A DNA stretch of 64,000 nt from Phytopythium helicoides. Its lineage: Eukaryota > Oomycota > Peronosporomycetes > Pythiales > Pythiaceae. Both the position numbers and the translations under genes were made by a program. Below are positions 40,744 to 48,797 of this stretch, in pieces. The DNA is taken from assembly GCA_024867545.1 (NCBI GenBank), contig JANFNE010000015.1:62001-126000 (forward strand), in the 5' to 3' direction. How positions within the stretch are numbered: the stretch's first letter is position 1; the number at the start of each line of letters is the position of its first letter. The notes under the pieces are model-generated. The model was not told where the DNA came from. It was given only the letters and a program-made list of their open reading frames with translations, and ran no database searches.

Positions 40744-42990
40744 GAAACCGTATCGACGGCAAATGGAGCCCGCTCGGCAGCGTGGTGGCGCTGGAAGTCG
40801 AGTCGAGCGAGCGAAAATGATACATGTACTTTGATCGACTGTCATGTGTTTCGTCCATTTTGCATGAGCCTCTGAGCTCACTCCGTGTCGACCGCAGAGA
40901 CGTCCCAGAACTTGATCTTCAGCAGCTTCGGGTCGTCTAGGCGGCACATCATCGGCTCCTGGCTACGCAGGACCCGCCGAACATTGACGTTGCCGCCGCT
41001 CCCGCCGAACGAGTTGAGCTTTTCATCGAGGACCCAGACTGCGACGCGGTAGTTCCACAGCTGGAAGAATGCGCGCATGGCTGCCATCGAGGCAATGATA
41101 TCCCAGTCGTCGAAGCGCATGATGTACTTGCCTCCAAACACGACGTAGCCCAGTCGAACGAGATCGTAGCTGTCCAAAACGGGGCGGCGCACGGCGGGCT
41201 GAATCGTGGTGACGGCTCCACTGTCGTTTTTGATCTCGCGGATCAGTGAGCGTGTAGCATTCACGACGGATTTCTTGCTCGCCTTCTGGCACACGTTCGC
41301 CACCACAGCGCCAGACAAACCTCCGACATTATCGGCTCGCACCGCCAACGCCTTCTCGATCCCGCTCACCTTGTCCGCATCCTCAAAGTACTGCTTCCGA
41401 GCTGGTAGCGGTCGAGACAACACCAGCGGCAGCACATTCAGCACCAGAATCGCAATCTTCCCTCGAACCAGCTCCATCACTCGGCCATTCAAACGCACTG
41501 CAATCTCCGACCGAAAGAAGTCAACCAGTTGCAAGTGGTTCACCTCGTCCGAGAACACGAGCGTCGACACGCGACTATCGACTCCCTTGAAATACCCGTT
41601 CGCAGCCAACTCCAAGCGAAAGTAGTGCAGCAAGCACAACGCGATGATGGTCGGCGCGAACAACACGTCCGACACTCGGCGACGCAACGCCTTGGCACCC
41701 GCGTTCAGCACGCTGTAGTAGATGAGCACGAAGCTGACGATGGACGGGTACATGGTGAACCACGCCTCCGACAATCCCGACTGCTCGCCCTCGAAGTTGC
41801 AGCCGACGGTCCAGAACGCGCACAGGATCATCTTGAGTTTGGGAAGCATGGCAAATGGCAGGAACGTGAAGCTGCGAGCACTCGCGATGCAGCCGATGCC
41901 ACCACTTCGCCAGTCGGCGTCGCCACTGAAGTATCCCCGGTGCATGGCGACCATGGCGACGAACCATCGCACGAGCAGCAGTGCCACGGACGCGTTGTTG
42001 AGCAGCGTCCCCCAGTCGTACTTGATGGACACGATGCGCTTGAAATGGCTCTTGAACAGGAACAGACCCTCGCCGTCCTTGTTGCCGATGTAGATCTGGT
42101 CCGCATCGTAGTACCGGTCGTTCGTGGCGAACTGCGTCCCCCAGTGTGCGTAGTAGTTCATCTGTCGACACACGTCCGAGTGCTGGCAGTCGGCCTCGAC
42201 ACCTGTACGCGTGTCGAATTGGCGAACTGGCATGTCGAGAATGGACGTCGGGGAGTTCGTCTGGATCTCCGACACCCACTTGTCGCCCTGCAAGTCTTCG
42301 TACCAGCCATGACGCCACTCGCCACCCGGTCTCTTGAGCCACTCGACCGTGTGTGCGAGTCGAATGCTTCGATCCAAGCCACGCATGAACGCGTTCGGGA
42401 GGGTCTTGTCTTCGTACGAACCGTGGAGGCGGAACATGCACGCGTTGCCGTCAGATGTCGGAATGACGTGACGGCCGTAAGGTGCGTTGTCCCAGTGTGG
42501 CATGAGCAACATCGGCAACGAGTCGTTGATGGCGTACGTGCGCGGACTGTCGACGTCGTCCGATAGCCGGATGATGTCCGTGACAAGGTCGGTGTAGCCG
42601 AGTCGGTGGCAGGCGCTCACGATGTTGTCGTATGTGCTGGCGATGAGGTTGCACGAGTCAGTGAGGGTTTGCTCAGCTTTGGGGTCGAGAGCTTGGTGGA
42701 TTCCTCGCTTTTGCAGTCGGTAGCCGATCTTGTATGTTCCCGTGTCGTCGATGAGCACGGCTTTGTCGGAGGCGAGAGCTTGTGAAGCTAGCATGGCTCG
42801 GTACTTGGCTCCGTCTTGCATGCAGACGACCATGCGGTCCGAGTAGGAGTAGTCGTTCTGTCCGAGGATGGGAGCGATACCGTAGTCCGGGTAGTGTCCG
42901 AAGAAGTAGTCGACATTGGTGGTCATGGTGTTCCAAATGATGCAGAGGAACTGGGAAAACATCATGACGCCAATGAAGATCCACGTCAGC
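40690..42990 (-). repeat. Right arm of about 2.3-kb inverted repeat
   Basis: Inverted partner of about 23,490-25,795. It ends, as on the left, in the first membrane segment of the gene on one side and in the GT60 tail on the other. Confidence 0.88.
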
Positions 42991-43145
42991 CAGTGGTAAA
43001 AGGCAATCGACATTTGCCAATACGAAATCTTGACTTCTCGACGCTTGGGGCGAAGAAATCGCATGGAAAAGCTGCGTGACCTGGACCTTGTGGAAGTCCT
43101 TTCAGGCTTCTCCTCAGGTATCACTCCCTCTGCTTTGTCTCCCAT
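40878..43145 (-). CDS. Multi-pass membrane protein, oomycete family, right copy
   Basis: 755 residues, intronless, the inverted paralog of the gene at 23,336. From the first membrane segment (IFIGVMMFSQFLCIIW) to the C terminus only scattered residues differ (for example VGYRLQ/IGYRLQ, HKTLDPK/HQALDPK, VRKQHFNDADR/ARKQYFEDADK). The first 55 residues are unrelated: MGDKAEGVIPEEKPERTSTR and a serine/arginine stretch instead of the left copy's alanine/threonine-rich leader. The start codon is 78 nt downstream of the Fanzor stop on the same strand, so its promoter must overlap the Fanzor 3' end. Function is not recognised. Confidence 0.85.
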   Translation of the reverse strand: MGDKAEGVIPEEKPERTSTRSRSRSFSMRFLRPKRREVKISYWQMSIAFYHWLTWIFIGVMMFSQFLCIIWNTMTTNVDYFFGHYPDYGIAPILGQNDYSYSDRMVVCMQDGAKYRAMLASQALASDKAVLIDDTGTYKIGYRLQKRGIHQALDPKAEQTLTDSCNLIASTYDNIVSACHRLGYTDLVTDIIRLSDDVDSPRTYAINDSLPMLLMPHWDNAPYGRHVIPTSDGNACMFRLHGSYEDKTLPNAFMRGLDRSIRLAHTVEWLKRPGGEWRHGWYEDLQGDKWVSEIQTNSPTSILDMPVRQFDTRTGVEADCQHSDVCRQMNYYAHWGTQFATNDRYYDADQIYIGNKDGEGLFLFKSHFKRIVSIKYDWGTLLNNASVALLLVRWFVAMVAMHRGYFSGDADWRSGGIGCIASARSFTFLPFAMLPKLKMILCAFWTVGCNFEGEQSGLSEAWFTMYPSIVSFVLIYYSVLNAGAKALRRRVSDVLFAPTIIALCLLHYFRLELAANGYFKGVDSRVSTLVFSDEVNHLQLVDFFRSEIAVRLNGRVMELVRGKIAILVLNVLPLVLSRPLPARKQYFEDADKVSGIEKALAVRADNVGGLSGAVVANVCQKASKKSVVNATRSLIREIKNDSGAVTTIQPAVRRPVLDSYDLVRLGYVVFGGKYIMRFDDWDIIASMAAMRAFFQLWNYRVAVWVLDEKLNSFGGSGGNVNVRRVLRSQEPMMCRLDDPKLLKIKFWDVSAVDTE

Positions 43146-43223: not shown

Positions 43224-44864
43224 CTAGCTGGGTGTTTCAGGTTTTGCCAAGGAGGAAACCAACGGACGTTGTTCAAATTTGGAGGAGACGTAGGGGTGTC
43301 TCAGCATGTTCTCGGAGGCATTCGCATCGCGATTCACAGTCATACTACGACAGCCATTGGTTCTACAATGAAGTACGCTGTGAATCTTGCAGGTGCGTTC
43401 TATACCGTCCTTGCACAAGCGCTTGCTGTACTGGAAACTCAACTCGCGACAGCACCTCGAATGTAGCTTGCTCGTCCGAAATTCATCGATCGAGACCACG
43501 GTGCAGTATCGCCTTAGCTCGCGCTCCAGCTTCTTGACTGGTGCCTTCTGTCGCCCCTTGATTCGTCCAGAGGTGTCGTTGTTGCTCCAGTTCCCGAAGC
43601 CTACCACAGTCCGCTGTCCAGCCAGCTCAGTCAGCACCAGACACAATGCGCGCAGCTTCTTCTTGGCGTAGATATAGCAGCGCAGTCTGAGCTTCCTAAA
43701 CGGCTTGATCCTGTAGAAGTTGAGCAGCCTGTCCACGCGAGGAATCATGAACCGAACATACCGCTCGAGTGTAGCTAGGGAAGAGGTCTTCTTGGTCGGC
43801 ATGTGGTGTACAGCTTCTGAAATAGCCACATCCTGGTCCTGCCATACCTCTCGCTTCTTCTGACTACTAGTGTATCGAGCGTCTTCGTAGAACTCGCGTG
43901 TTGAGCAGGAACGCTTCTCACCGAGCTGGTTCGTTGCCACAAAGAGATCTCTGTACCCCGGGTCCAGGCCCCACATAATATCAAAGTCTTCTTCGCGAGG
44001 TACTCGGGCGATGTTGTCTCGTGCGGGTTTCCGCAGCACAATCGAGACCGCCTTCCCATCAGTGACTATCTGACCGGCAAACCTGCGATTCGAGGTCTCG
44101 AACCGGTCGATACGGAAGAGCTCCCGCCAGTACTCGTCGGCTACCTCGTTCCAGTCGTTTCCCTCAGCGGGTACCTCTACTCCAGCTCGTCGTAAAAGCC
44201 CACGAAGGCCGTACTTACACAACTTGAAATGGCTGCAGGTGAAGCCGTTCTTGTAGGGCAGCAAGCTGAAAGTACGGAGCTCTTGGAACCCAGGTGTTCC
44301 GACAAACCGTCGGTTCCATTCCTCAATGTCCGCCAAGAAGGTGTACGTCAGTGGCAATAGAGCATGCGGCGTGTCATTGAGCTGTCCATTGGGAGATCGT
44401 GGTATCTGAGCCCGCCACGCTCGAATCTCGAGGTCAGGTCCATCGTACTCTGGAGCGAGAATCTTTCTCAACATGTCGTACGCCTCGTGCCCGCCAATAT
44501 GGTATGTCCGCTTGATCATTTTATGGAAGCGCCGGAAGAAGTTGAGCTTGAGCGAGTTCTTCGTGTTGGTCGTCATCTCGCGAGCCGCCCATCCGTGCCA
44601 CCCACGGCTCAGGTATTCGCTACTAGCAAGAGGAGTCTCGGTGTCACGCCACTGGAGATATAGGTCAAGCGATTGACGGAACTCTGGGTCAGCAATCGCT
44701 CGGCGTGCATATGCACCAACCGTCACCGCCGACAGGCACCTCTGAAAGAATGTCTGGTTGAGCTCTGGAAGAGGGCCGCCTTCTCCGCATAGTCGAGCGA
44801 TGTCATGAGGAACTTTTATTGAGTTGCAACACCCGTCCAAGATCGCATCTTCCAACTTAGGCAC
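43224..44864 (-). CDS. Fanzor: eukaryotic TnpB-like RNA-guided DNA endonuclease
   Basis: A 546-codon open frame with the split RuvC and zinc finger of the TnpB/Fanzor family. RuvC-I is WGLDPGYRDLF with D301. The usual RuvC-II position, VVGFGNWSNND (420-430), lacks the glutamate. A glutamate is instead found in VSIDEFRTSK (E461), matching the rearranged active site reported for Fanzors. Cysteines around 471-472 and LHCRTNGC (C500, C505) form the zinc finger, and RuvC-III is VNRDANASENM (D513). The catalytic set is complete. The N-terminal 280 residues form the family's helical/wedge region. No in-frame ATG precedes about residue 97: the open frame is preceded by a TGA and would begin at GTG. 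So the 5' end is either spliced from an unseen exon or degraded. No terminal inverted repeats were found. Confidence 0.88.
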   Translation of the reverse strand: MPKLEDAILDGCCNSIKVPHDIARLCGEGGPLPELNQTFFQRCLSAVTVGAYARRAIADPEFRQSLDLYLQWRDTETPLASSEYLSRGWHGWAAREMTTNTKNSLKLNFFRRFHKMIKRTYHIGGHEAYDMLRKILAPEYDGPDLEIRAWRAQIPRSPNGQLNDTPHALLPLTYTFLADIEEWNRRFVGTPGFQELRTFSLLPYKNGFTCSHFKLCKYGLRGLLRRAGVEVPAEGNDWNEVADEYWRELFRIDRFETSNRRFAGQIVTDGKAVSIVLRKPARDNIARVPREEDFDIMWGLDPGYRDLFVATNQLGEKRSCSTREFYEDARYTSSQKKREVWQDQDVAISEAVHHMPTKKTSSLATLERYVRFMIPRVDRLLNFYRIKPFRKLRLRCYIYAKKKLRALCLVLTELAGQRTVVGFGNWSNNDTSGRIKGRQKAPVKKLERELRRYCTVVSIDEFRTSKLHSRCCRELSFQYSKRLCKDGIERTCKIHSVLHCRTNGCRSMTVNRDANASENMLRHPYVSSKFEQRPLVSSLAKPETPS

Positions 44865-44986: not shown

Positions 44987-46338
44987 CTATGATAGCTGAT
45001 CAAGGAGTGACTTCAACGCCTGCTTGGCACTGGCGTTCAGGTCATCGCCCTCATCTCGCTCGATTCGCTTGAGCTGATCCACCACCGGCACTGCGATGTC
45101 GTCATCGCTACGACACCACGCTTGGTTCTCTTCGTGGGACACAATTGCGCTATTGAGGGCGAGCAGTGCATTGGTCTGCAGGGTCTCGGTAGCAGCCGAA
45201 AGGTGGTGCGCAAGAAGCGAAAGCCCACCGGCACTGGCCAGAAGGCTCTGGCTTGAGTGGTTCAGATGAACAGCGTGGTGGATCGCCCATGCCGCACTGC
45301 TGCTCGTCTCTTCGGAAAACGCAGGTGACAAAAGCATCACGAGCTGAGGCAACGCGCCAATCTGAATCGCATCAATCGAGATCAGTACAGACCAGAATTC
45401 AACGCGATCTCAGCTTGAAACGGTTGCCTACCTCCCGAATCAAGTCTTGCGCATCAATGTCGTGTCCAGCCAAGATGTTGCCGAGAGCGAAGGCCGTCGC
45501 GCTGAGCATGGAGTCGGCTGTTCCGACATGAAGCATGCTCCAGGTCATTCGCTACTCATGTCAACACTCACGTCTTCAGCCACGTACAAAACTCGTCGTT
45601 CTCGAGCAGCTCGGCCAGGAAGCCGATTGTCTCGGGGTTGCACAGTAGCTCACGTCCCCGCGAGCCTCCCGCGATGTTGGCCAGGCATGTCACCGCCGCG
45701 CGCTTGATGGCCTCGTGTGGACACGACGCCGCGTGCAGCACCGCAGAAGCGACAAAGTTAGTCGCGACGGCTTGTTCTGCCGACGGGTCGAGCGCCACGT
45801 TCCCAAGCGCGAGGCACGCCGCCGCCTGCAGCCTCGGGTCGTCCAGCCGCAAGAAGTGCGCGAACACGTCTGGAGCCTCGAGCCTCACGAGCTCCTGCAC
45901 CACCACGGGCTCTGTGGACAGCCGGATGAGCGCAAGGAACGCCGGCACCAACAGCGAGGACGCCGCGATCGAGTCGCTGTCCTTGAGCAGCTCCAGAGCG
46001 CCGAGCAGCGCACCGCTGTCCACGAGCTCGAGCGCGCGCCGGTCCCGCTCCAACTTGTCGACGTCAGTGGCCGACGGTAGCTGCAGCGCATTTAGCGCCT
46101 CGATGCGCGCCTCAGTGCTCGTCTCCTTGGCTGCGATCGAGGCCGCGAGGTCGAAAACGCTGGCGAACGTCGCGAAGCTTCGAGCGGCCAGAACTTTTCT
46201 TGCAGCCATCGGACGAGCGCCAAACTTCGCAGACACTTCAAAGAGATGTAGAGGGGACGCTCTAGCTACTTGGCGGGCGTGTGCAGCCGCCTGGCGACGC
46301 GCAGCGACGCTCGCAGTCGCCGCCACCTTGCGCATCAT
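44987..46338 (-). CDS. Armadillo-repeat protein with presequence-like N terminus (three exons)
   Basis: 403 residues from exons 45,588-46,338, 45,432-45,517 and 44,987-45,361. The first donor is taken as gtacgt because it alone keeps the frame (the alternative gtgagt 16 nt further on does not). Repeated ARM helices are seen: ARIEALNALQLP, LLVPAFLALIRLS, LQAAACLALGNVALD, AIKRAAVTCLANIAGGS, MLSATAFALGNILAG, and TLQTNALLALNSAIVSH. The N terminus is arginine/alanine/serine-rich without acids (MMRKVAATASVAARRQAAAH), which suggests mitochondrial import. No specific orthologue is recognised; ARM proteins generally bind other proteins. Start: the ATG pair after a non-ATG frame. Confidence 0.75.
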
Positions 46339-46564
46339 GTTGGTTGGTTTGTCGGATGCCAAGCCTGCTGATCAACTGTGCTCCCTCGCCTTACGATTGG
46401 CCGGTTGCAATCGCATCCGGCCAATCATCTTTGTAATTCAGCATTTTTTTGTCCAATCGTATCAATATAAAGCTTTTTATTGGCTGAAAATACTATTGAT
46501 AGCGCTGTGATTGGCTGAGACGATCCCCACACTGTTCAAACGGCATTTTTTTCCCACGAGCAAC
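46339..46564. promoter_or_regulatory. Divergent promoter with five CCAAT boxes, ARM protein / PPIL2
   Basis: 226 nt between start codons with five CCAAT pentamers: 46,396-46,400 (reverse), 46,421-46,425, 46,453-46,457, 46,479-46,483 (reverse) and 46,510-46,514 (reverse). Three are extended to attggctg or ccaatca. CCAAT boxes bind NF-Y in eukaryotes. They probably drive both genes. Confidence 0.65.
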
Positions 46565-48797
46565 ATGGGCAAGAACCGCCACAGCAAGGATCGGCTCTTC
46601 ATCACGCAGACGGAGCACAAGTTCCTGTATGGCGGCAAGAAGCAGGAGACGCGTCGTGCCTACAAGCGTGCGTGGTTACGGTGCCCAACTGCGCGTTCTC
46701 TCGGCGGCAGGAGGCTCACGCGTTTTTTCTAGGGCTGCCGTTCAACTGCTGCGCCATCACGTTGCGTCCGTTTGAGGTCCGCTGCTGCTGCTGCTTGGGG
46801 TGCTGCTGTGGTGGGAAATACTAATGGGAGCGTGGCAGAACCCCGTGTGCACGCGGGAGGGACACCTGTTCGACCTGGAGGCCGTCGTGCCGTTCGTCAA
46901 GGAGCACCAGATCGTGCGTCGCTGATTCCCAGCCAGTCGTTTTGCGTGGGAGATGCACAAGGCTCTAATGTGGTGCTGAAATGGTGACAGAACCCCGTGT
47001 CGGGGGCGCCGCTGGCTCTGAAGGACCTGATCCAGCTCAAATTCAGCAAGAACTCGCAGGGAGAGTACTTTTGCCCCGTGACGTACAAGGTGTTCACGGA
47101 CAGCACCAAGATCGCGGCGATTGCGACCACGGGTAACGTGTTTGCCTTCGACGCCATCGAGGAGCTCAACATCAAGGCCAAGAATTGGACGGTGCGCTTG
47201 GTCCAATGCTTTTTTCCCGTTTCAATAAACACTAGTCTGACGAGCTGAGCACATTAGGACCTCCTCTCAGGCGAAAAGTTCAAGCGCAAGGACATTATCA
47301 TCCTGCAGGATCCGCTCGACTACTCGAACCGCGAGATTGAGAATTTCGAGCACTTGCGTCGCGCCAAGGCAAACGACTCGGTGAGGACGCCATCTCGGAG
47401 TTGCTCATGCTTGTGAACAAGGAAACTAACGAAGGCTATGCATACGCAGAAATCAGCTACAGAATCTACTGCTGCCCGTAATATCCGTACAAACGCTGCT
47501 ACAGACCGGATCCTCCAGGAGGTATGTGATCTCGCATTTGGGATTGTTATCTCTCAAAGTAAGGAGTGTGAGCGTGCACCTTTCACAGTTGGAGGCAAAG
47601 CGCGCGGAGAAGAGACAGCTCGCTGAGAAGATCAAGCGAGGAGACGATGATGTCAGCGAGAAGGACAAGATTGTGGCGTCGCTAACTCATGGGGCAGTCA
47701 CCAGCGAAGGGAAAACAGGTCAGGAAGGTCAAACTAGTTCGACCAGTGGCAAACTCCAGTACTCTCGTTTCACTGATGGAGAGGCTTCGAGCTCTTTCAC
47801 GTCGAGTGCTCGTGCACCAGTCACACGAACAGCGGGTATTGCAATCACAGAGCAGGAATTGCTGGATGAACGCTGGCAGACGGTTCGAAAGATGAAGAAG
47901 AAGGGCCTCGTGCGTCTTTCGACAAACTACGGTGACATTAACCTTGAGATCCACTGCGACTTCGTACCGCAGACGGCAGACAACTTTATGAGTCTGTGTG
48001 AGGCCAAGTACTACGATGGTGTGGTGTTCCATCGAATCATCAAGGGCTTCATGATGCAAGGCGGCGATCCCACCGGCACGGGGCGTGGAGGTGACTCCAT
48101 CTGGAAGAAGCCCTTTCGCGACGAAATTGACAGTCGACTGGTACGTTGCTACGAGTTCGCGTTCTAACTTTACGATTTCTAGGCTGATTATTGACGTGCC
48201 GCCACACAGAGTCACGATGCGCGAGGAGTACTGAGCATGGCAAATTCGGGACCCAGCACAAACCGTTCCCAGTTTTTCATCACGTTTAAGCCGTGCCAGC
48301 ATCTGGACAAGAAGCACTCAGTCTTTGGCCATGTTGTTGGAGGCATGGATGTTGTGGATACCATTGAGCAAGTCGAGACTGGCGGTGAAGATCGTCCGAT
48401 TGACGACGTCCGCATCACAGGTGTTCAGGTGTTTGTCAATCCGTTTAAAGAGTATGAAGAAGCCAAGAACCAAGGTCTTGATGTGCTAGAGGTCACCAAG
48501 ACAAAGCGCGCAGAGGAAGCAAAGCCTCGGGCGAAGGGAACGGTTGTTAAGGTAGGAAATGACTGGGTCGCTTACGACGACATTGGTGACGCCGACATCG
48601 CCGCAATTCCAAGCACCGTGACAACCAAGGAAGAAAGCGTGGGGAAATATTTGAAGGCTGCGAAATCTAGTAGCAAGTCGGCAGGGAAACGGTCAGCCGA
48701 AGAAGACGGACCGACGATGCCTGCCGCAATTGAGAGCAAGAAGAAGTCCAAGGTGACTGCTAGCAAAGGCGGCTTTGGGAACTTCTCTGGGTGGTAG
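46565..48797 (+). CDS. PPIL2: PPIL2-type U-box cyclophilin, spliceosomal (eight exons)
   Basis: 590 residues. Exons: 46,565-46,667, 46,733-46,776, 46,839-46,913, 46,991-47,191, 47,258-47,380, 47,435-47,521, 47,589-48,140 and 48,210-48,797, all joining in frame. The start [19 protein letters not shown] is the conserved PPIL2 N terminus. Two U-box halves follow ([18 protein letters not shown] and the [11 protein letters not shown] region), then the linker ILQDP, and a full cyclophilin domain ([54 protein letters not shown]). PPIL2 is a nuclear isomerase/U-box protein bound to the spliceosome; the cyclophilin active-site tryptophan is missing in this subfamily and a Cys-Gln-His takes its place (CQHLDKKH). 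A lysine-rich C-terminal extension ending FGNFSGW is longer than in animals. Confidence 0.93.

Follow-up and report, generated by a model that had tools for sequence, protein, structure and literature searches.

The stretch of Phytopythium helicoides DNA analysed here, 64,000 nucleotides of contig JANFNE010000015.1, is called the window throughout, and its positions serve for all window coordinates. On its minus strand lies an open reading frame (ORF) of 546 codons (43224..44864), an incomplete copy of an element encoding a Fanzor1, a eukaryotic RNA-guided nuclease. A sequence-only reading of the window had proposed a Fanzor gene with a rearranged RuvC active site, and re-reading the frame bears out both the ORF coordinates and the placing of D301, E461 and D513. 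The stop codon occupies 43224-43226, the GTG listed as the start sits two codons past an in-frame TGA, and no in-frame ATG occurs before codon 97 (44574..44576).

The active-site residues were counted in a 44-row alignment. The RuvC-I aspartate D301 (43962..43964) is D in 43 rows and is followed by the invariant P302 and G303 of the DPG motif, and the RuvC-III aspartate D513 (43326..43328), within NRD, is D in 42. The canonical RuvC-II stretch of the relic, VVGFGNWS, contains no glutamate, and the residue following the invariant G424 is D in 34 rows and N in 10; the glutamate is displaced, as had been proposed, to E461 (43482..43484), a position seven residues ahead of H468 that is E in 43 rows. 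The zinc-finger region (43350..43463) has the form H468-x2-C471 ... C500-x4-C505, with position 468 being H in 30 rows and C in 14, and the TDG motif (PMC10711439) of the WED domain lies at residues 268-270 (44055..44063), its D269 being preserved across the copies fetched from the genome.

The relic is a Fanzor1 by descent. With 81 proteins matching at E ≤ 1e-3 out of 7,992 candidates scored, and a best value of 3.6e-190, chance similarity is excluded. The best named matches come from oomycetes, namely Globisporangium ultimum, Phytophthora and Nothophytophthora, at 50-58% identity. Searches of solved structures with the single sequence recovered SpuFz1 (1.9e-6) and PpFz1 (5.2e-5), and a 46-row profile recovered SpuFz1 (7.7e-35), PpFz1 (3.2e-30) and GtFz1 (1.8e-16). 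D301, E461 and D513 align with SpuFz1 D383, E541 and D606 (sequence alignment, tag offset 394), which are reported to hold two magnesium ions (PMC10432273). The marks of Fanzors given by Yoon et al. are DPG, the displaced glutamate and TDG (PMC10711439); the relic has the first at RuvC-I and the second just before the zinc finger, together with the Fanzor1 marks of TDG in WED and a Fanzor1-type predicted fold. The structure prediction, in which alignment with SpuFz1 begins at residue 36, suggests that nearly the whole fold, RuvC site included, is retained, making the relic more complete than the sequence had suggested.

The alternative that the protein is another transposase, or a TnpB or Fanzor2, could appeal to the weak match of the window copy to Pfam PF07282 (19.7 bits, under the curated cut-off of 26.3), and NCBIfam likewise gives only a sub-threshold TnpB match; 42 of the 46 aligned members match PF07282 at E ≤ 0.01. 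However, the profile matches to SpuFz1, PpFz1 and GtFz1 and the alignment of the predicted structure with SpuFz1 both point to Fanzor1, leaving this alternative a vanishingly small probability, and together with the homologue search they rule out another transposase or a chance match. A 48%-identical Fanzor1 (P0018), located on a 3.3-kb contig, is assigned to a Thermoplasmata metagenome bin, and is likely to be contamination because no prokaryotic relative was confirmed in genome contigs; there is also one weak match to a viral contig, at 21% identity.

The neighbouring frames are likewise on the minus strand. Upstream lie two open frames with armadillo repeats (44987..46362), probably exons of a single gene, and downstream there is a 755-amino-acid open frame (40878..43145) with no Pfam match at E ≤ 1.

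Losses and constraint in the window copy

The nearest genome copies of the window ORF are L009 (contig C90), which is intact and encodes 626 amino acids from its ATG, and L010 (C24). The stretch that the window shares with L009 is exactly 1,503 bp long, gap-free and 89.6% identical in DNA, and runs from 44803 to 43301. Upstream of 44803 some 60 bp of weak resemblance to the sister fade out by eye, and the sister's first ~105 residues, including VVKSTLNSFC, are missing. The lost N-terminal block holds the VVKxTLNSFC strand, in which at least 90% of the 46 rows share the K68 found in the sister. Downstream, homology ends at ...NASENML, with the final ~20 codons and the 3′ non-coding end swapped for unrelated sequence (C-terminal codons at 43227..43300). 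The window copy has no complete WED/REC N-terminus, and the right end of the element, the expected source of the guide RNA, is absent from it and present in full-length copies. In SpuFz1 the WED residues H21, T22 and K25 are described as contacting the start of the guide-target duplex (PMC10432273), and all three precede residue 36, where the structural alignment with the relic begins. Because the first WED strand, the start codon and the right-end RNA have been lost, the relic on its own should make no working guide complex.

The suggestion of the sequence-only reading that the protein may still be an active nuclease is thus weakly supported for the window copy: the catalytic triad is present, but the N-terminal block, the ATG, the C-terminal tail and the right end are not. 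It could be argued that the window ORF is nonetheless a working Fanzor gene, translated from a codon other than ATG, from codon 97 or from an unseen upstream exon, and taking its guide from another copy. In favour of this are the presence of the full catalytic triad and of the zinc site, a fold that is almost entire and 501 codons without a stop or indel, and guide RNA could come in trans from intact copies elsewhere; yet with the start, the first WED strand and the right end all missing we consider a working gene very improbable.

Comparison of the window with L009 over 500 codons gives a nonsynonymous divergence (dN) of 0.059 and a synonymous divergence (dS) of 0.324, a ratio of 0.18. Private changes (synonymous/nonsynonymous/stop) number 31/26/0 in the window, 56/38/0 in L009 and 44/39/3 in L010, against a neutral expectation of 23-26% synonymous and about 4% stop, and are distributed over codon positions 1/2/3 as 18/11/28, 19/18/57 and 21/20/45, respectively. 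The pattern does not differ significantly among the three copies (p 0.29-0.73), and L010 has three indels in addition to its three stop-making changes. The window lineage was under constraint for much of its private history, and recent truncation explains this. Domestication would explain it too, the relic then serving as a host gene whose truncated product might bind DNA or RNA or act as a nuclease without a guide of its own. The dN/dS ratio, the excess of synonymous private changes over the neutral share and the decay of L010 are all consistent with such a role; however, equal constraint is expected of a transposon that was functional until it was recently truncated, and there is no ATG start, so that domestication seems to us improbable.

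The Fanzor1 family and its insertion site

A scan of the genome (49 Mb in 100 contigs) yielded 79 scored matches from 271 first-look candidates, and the genome therefore holds at least 79 copies. Within the match 48 of the 79 are stop-free, and in 27 of these the open frame extends to 650 codons or more, which on sequence grounds would make them better candidates for activity than the relic. Twenty loci were fetched whole; L009 and L010 are the sisters of the window copy and the other 18 belong to a larger main family whose protein is 55-58% identical to that of the window. The main-family element is ~2.63 kb long with a single ORF and no terminal inverted repeats (TIRs), and its copies are mostly 93-99% identical. 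Fanzor is the only long ORF in the 14 elements scanned (659-700 amino acids in 12, 548 in L027 and broken in L019), other frames reaching 97-149 amino acids, and 304 in L022, which contains an insertion. The D, E and D are retained in 19 of the 20 fetched copies, frameshifts having hit those sites in L010. For ten ORFs picked as intact, a choice that favours constrained copies, the pooled dN/dS is 0.23 (range 0.16-0.68, median dS 0.047). The main family has spread recently with its Fanzor ORF under purifying selection.

Searching the genome with the end patterns found 81 left ends and 122 right ends (100 of them listed), and none with reversed-pattern controls. Among the 100 right ends listed, 60 left ends find a partner at most 30 kb away, 46 of the pairs spanning 2,378-2,704 bp, and 42 right ends have no left end.

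Three empty sites were recovered with the joined flanks of 20 copies, at 84-94% identity. The clearest reads GCATGAATGTAGAC, and its filled counterpart reads GCATGAATG-GCC ... TAGC-AATGTAGAC; the other two are more diverged. T[G/T]A(A)AT, which occurs at about 0.1-0.25% of positions in the background, fits 36 of 40 left flanks, and 34 of 38 right flanks start with AAT or AAAT. All 3 pairs with an additional A in the left flank have one in the right flank too, as against 1 of 23 others (L022, in which an insertion separates off the left end; p 0.0015), and because the two co-occur the run of A belongs to the target and is duplicated. Full-length copies are thus inserted at T[G/T]^AAT with AAT or AAAT duplicated; an early idea that the ends lacked a duplication was overturned by the empty sites and the truncated copies. 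No TIRs were seen by eye at the ends so defined. The left 13 nucleotides, ATGGCCGGGGTAC, are complementary at 11 of 13 positions to TTACCACGGCCAT, which lies 29 nucleotides from the right end (shuffle p 0.001), and the sister subfamily has similar asymmetric complementary ends. A right-end-like match near 48746-48766 of the window was dismissed as chance, since a BLAST comparison of the window with the elements finds nothing at that place.

Several further observations concern variation within the family. L073, L074 and L075 keep both ends with differing internal deletions, L073 also containing ~730 bp of unrelated sequence; since the deletions of these three fetched elements differ, the idea that the shortened elements form one amplified ghost family was rejected. 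The 5′ leaders of L011, L019, L023 and L024 have an extra palindromic stretch of ~66 bp (CTTGAAGACAC...GTGTCTTCAAG). L012, in other respects a main-family copy, has the terminal GAGTGGTAAC of the sister subfamily (L009, L010) in place of GAGTGCTAGC, as if its last bases had been exchanged.

Truncated copies, mobilization and the predicted guide RNA

We fetched 29 of the 42 unpaired right ends, and in all of them Fanzor-element sequence extends as far as the right end. For 22 the left boundary could be seen, every one being 5′-truncated, and for 7 it lies beyond the fetched stretch; with L014 this gives 23 truncated copies. Ten of the 23 have a 5-11-bp duplication starting exactly at the cut, and in six it is at least 8 bp, compared with a mean of 1.05 (maximum 5.5) for at least 5 bp and 0 for at least 8 bp among re-paired flanks, the cut-off and scoring having been chosen after 11 truncated copies were inspected. 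In 9 of the 10 copies with a duplication the cut is T[G/T]^AA. Across the family, retention of the right end is much commoner than retention of the left. Truncation points coincide with the 3′ inverted repeat (2584-2586) in 4 of 23 copies (p 0.03 among the 13 shortest), which is suggestive only. Eight unpaired left ends were also fetched, of which L093 has an internal deletion and four reach the edge of the fetched stretch.

It is probable, in our view, that the window ORF is what remains of a Fanzor1 element after truncation at both ends, and that the full-length relatives of this element have spread by a Helitron2-like process aided by Fanzor. A Helitron2-like, one-ended process would move the elements in trans, and an intact Fanzor, guided by an RNA that would extend from the right end across AAT into the flanking DNA, could cut empty TKAAT sites and thereby favour copying or retention, as proposed for TnpB. 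In Helraiser, truncation and read-through are reported at the terminator end (PMC4778049), and by that pattern the right end of this Fanzor1 family would therefore be the starting end.

The genome has 33 matches to the Helitron Rep domain (PF14214), several in tandem. ORFs with Rep domains (up to 2,277 codons) recur every ~9.4-11.9 kb on C1, C17, C23, C26 and C35, as if in tandem arrays. An autonomous partner with RepHel and the same ends was not found when left ends were sought within 20 kb of the Reps, right ends being unchecked, and the sole Rep neighbour, at C1:651576, was rejected as a partner, being a Fanzor copy interrupted by other DNA. The Fanzor copies at L069 (C1:645000-651900) and L022 (157-3112 in ORF orientation) are interrupted by DNA that begins with CTAATGCCGTGC and has a short hairpin; the insert in L022 is 2,956 bp long, with a hairpin at its end and Helitron2-like ends.

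A number of points weigh against the explanation that we favour. No family left end lies within 20 kb of any Rep domain except on C1, and classical Helitrons are not known to produce duplications. Thirteen of the 23 truncated copies show no duplication of 4 bp or more. L089, L095 and L094 have lost the right part, leaving left-end pieces of ~84, 160 and 655 bp respectively, and right-part loss therefore also happens, less often than left-part loss as far as counted. The lower variability of the 3′ end relative to fourfold sites is not significant (11/144 versus 38/325, p 0.25). As for the window copy, its frame has no stop or indel over the stretch shared with L009, as a functional ORF would show, and its private changes are not significantly more relaxed than those of the intact L009 (p 0.61).

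A serious rival, if an unlikely one, is that the family was moved by target-primed reverse transcription, with the machinery of long interspersed nuclear elements (LINEs) acting in trans, and not by a Helitron-type enzyme. Intact right (3′) ends with variable 5′ truncation, variable-length duplications from one precise cut at an AT-rich motif, and elements without introns are all features it would share. However, the right end has no poly-A or repeated tail, the ends are complementary and asymmetric, and three copies consist of the left end only; moreover, PF14529, an endonuclease and the one family of LINEs or reverse transcriptases that was searched for, has 2 matches, against the 33 to Rep. 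We therefore continue to prefer the Helitron2-like process.

By analogy with other Fanzor1 elements, in which the duplication is described as part of the guide scaffold and the RNA as continuing about 15 nucleotides further (PMC10711439), the guide RNA is expected at the right end, with the guide predicted to start after AAT and the target-adjacent motif (TAM) predicted to be T[G/T]AAT. The fold of the 3′ region is moderately stable (z -2.24), and Rfam has no match in L009 and L013. Variability is 1.73% in the 3′ region and 3.05% at fourfold sites, a difference that is not significant, and low diversity at the 3′ end was rejected as proof of a guide RNA. Thirteen of the 23 truncated copies keep only the last ~35-140 bp, which in approximate size match a guide-RNA scaffold, and several have their own duplication at TK^AA. 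There is a slim chance that these very short insertions are dispersed solo guide-RNA loci; were that so, and were they transcribed, each landing would turn the flank beyond AAT into a new guide that intact Fanzors could use in trans, and the one-ended element would build its own growing guide repertoire.

Comparison with known systems

SpuFz1 of Spizellomyces punctatus (PMC10432273, PMC11423790) resembles the window copy in its D/E/D sites, DPG, displaced glutamate, TDG, zinc site and fold, but the window copy is without the N-terminal strand, the start and the right end. SpuFz1 elements are described as having inverted repeats and the TAM CATA (PMC10432273, PMC11423790), whereas the family here has no TIRs and inserts at TKAAT.

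Closer parallels are offered by the Helitron2-type CRe-1, CRe-2 and CRe-3 of Chlamydomonas, which as described in PMC3627910 encode Fanzor1 with no transposase gene, include 5′-truncated copies with intact 3′ ends, show variable duplications from one target motif, and have asymmetric terminal inverted repeats and hairpins. They differ in their TTTT target and 5-10 exons, compared with TKAAT and a single exon here, and in the lack of a duplication reported for full-length copies, where AAT or AAAT is duplicated in ours; in addition, no verified Helitron with matching ends was found for the family here. The description of Helitron2 by Bao and Jurka (PMC3627910) places an inverted repeat of the 5′ end in a hairpin and its partner 20-30 bp from the 3′ end. 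The full-length family has such asymmetric inverted repeats, but its AAT or AAAT on both sides departs from the duplication-free full-length insertion of Helitron2. The MCi-2 Fanzor1 of Mucor (PMC3627910) is similarly described as TIR-less, with a constant 3′ part, a variable 5′ part and duplications whose first bases are a fixed motif (ATAATTNNNN); its elements are, however, much longer, with a partial Crypton gene in one subfamily and 11-12-bp duplications in complete copies.

Fanzor1 is also described in oomycetes, in the PUl families of Pythium ultimum, six of which are listed, and the PSo, PCa and PRa families of Phytophthora (PMC3627910). In the main-text description PUl-1 and PUl-4 differ from our family in having Mariner TIRs and TA duplications (PMC3627910). 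A partial search of the literature on Fanzor in oomycetes, TnpB and RNA-guided transposons, Helitrons and target duplications, judged by titles and the openings of abstracts, turned up nothing on the family beyond the PUl listing of PMC3627910; it may nonetheless already be on record, and may be one of the six PUl families. By itself the window ORF is an ordinary relic, and the interest lies in its family, which offers many recent copies with an apparently intact Fanzor, three empty sites, a sharp insertion motif from which the TAM (T[G/T]AAT) can be predicted and a defined right end from which the guide start can be predicted. The family would thus be a test of what Fanzor does in a TIR-less element with no transposase of its own, a question open since 2013.
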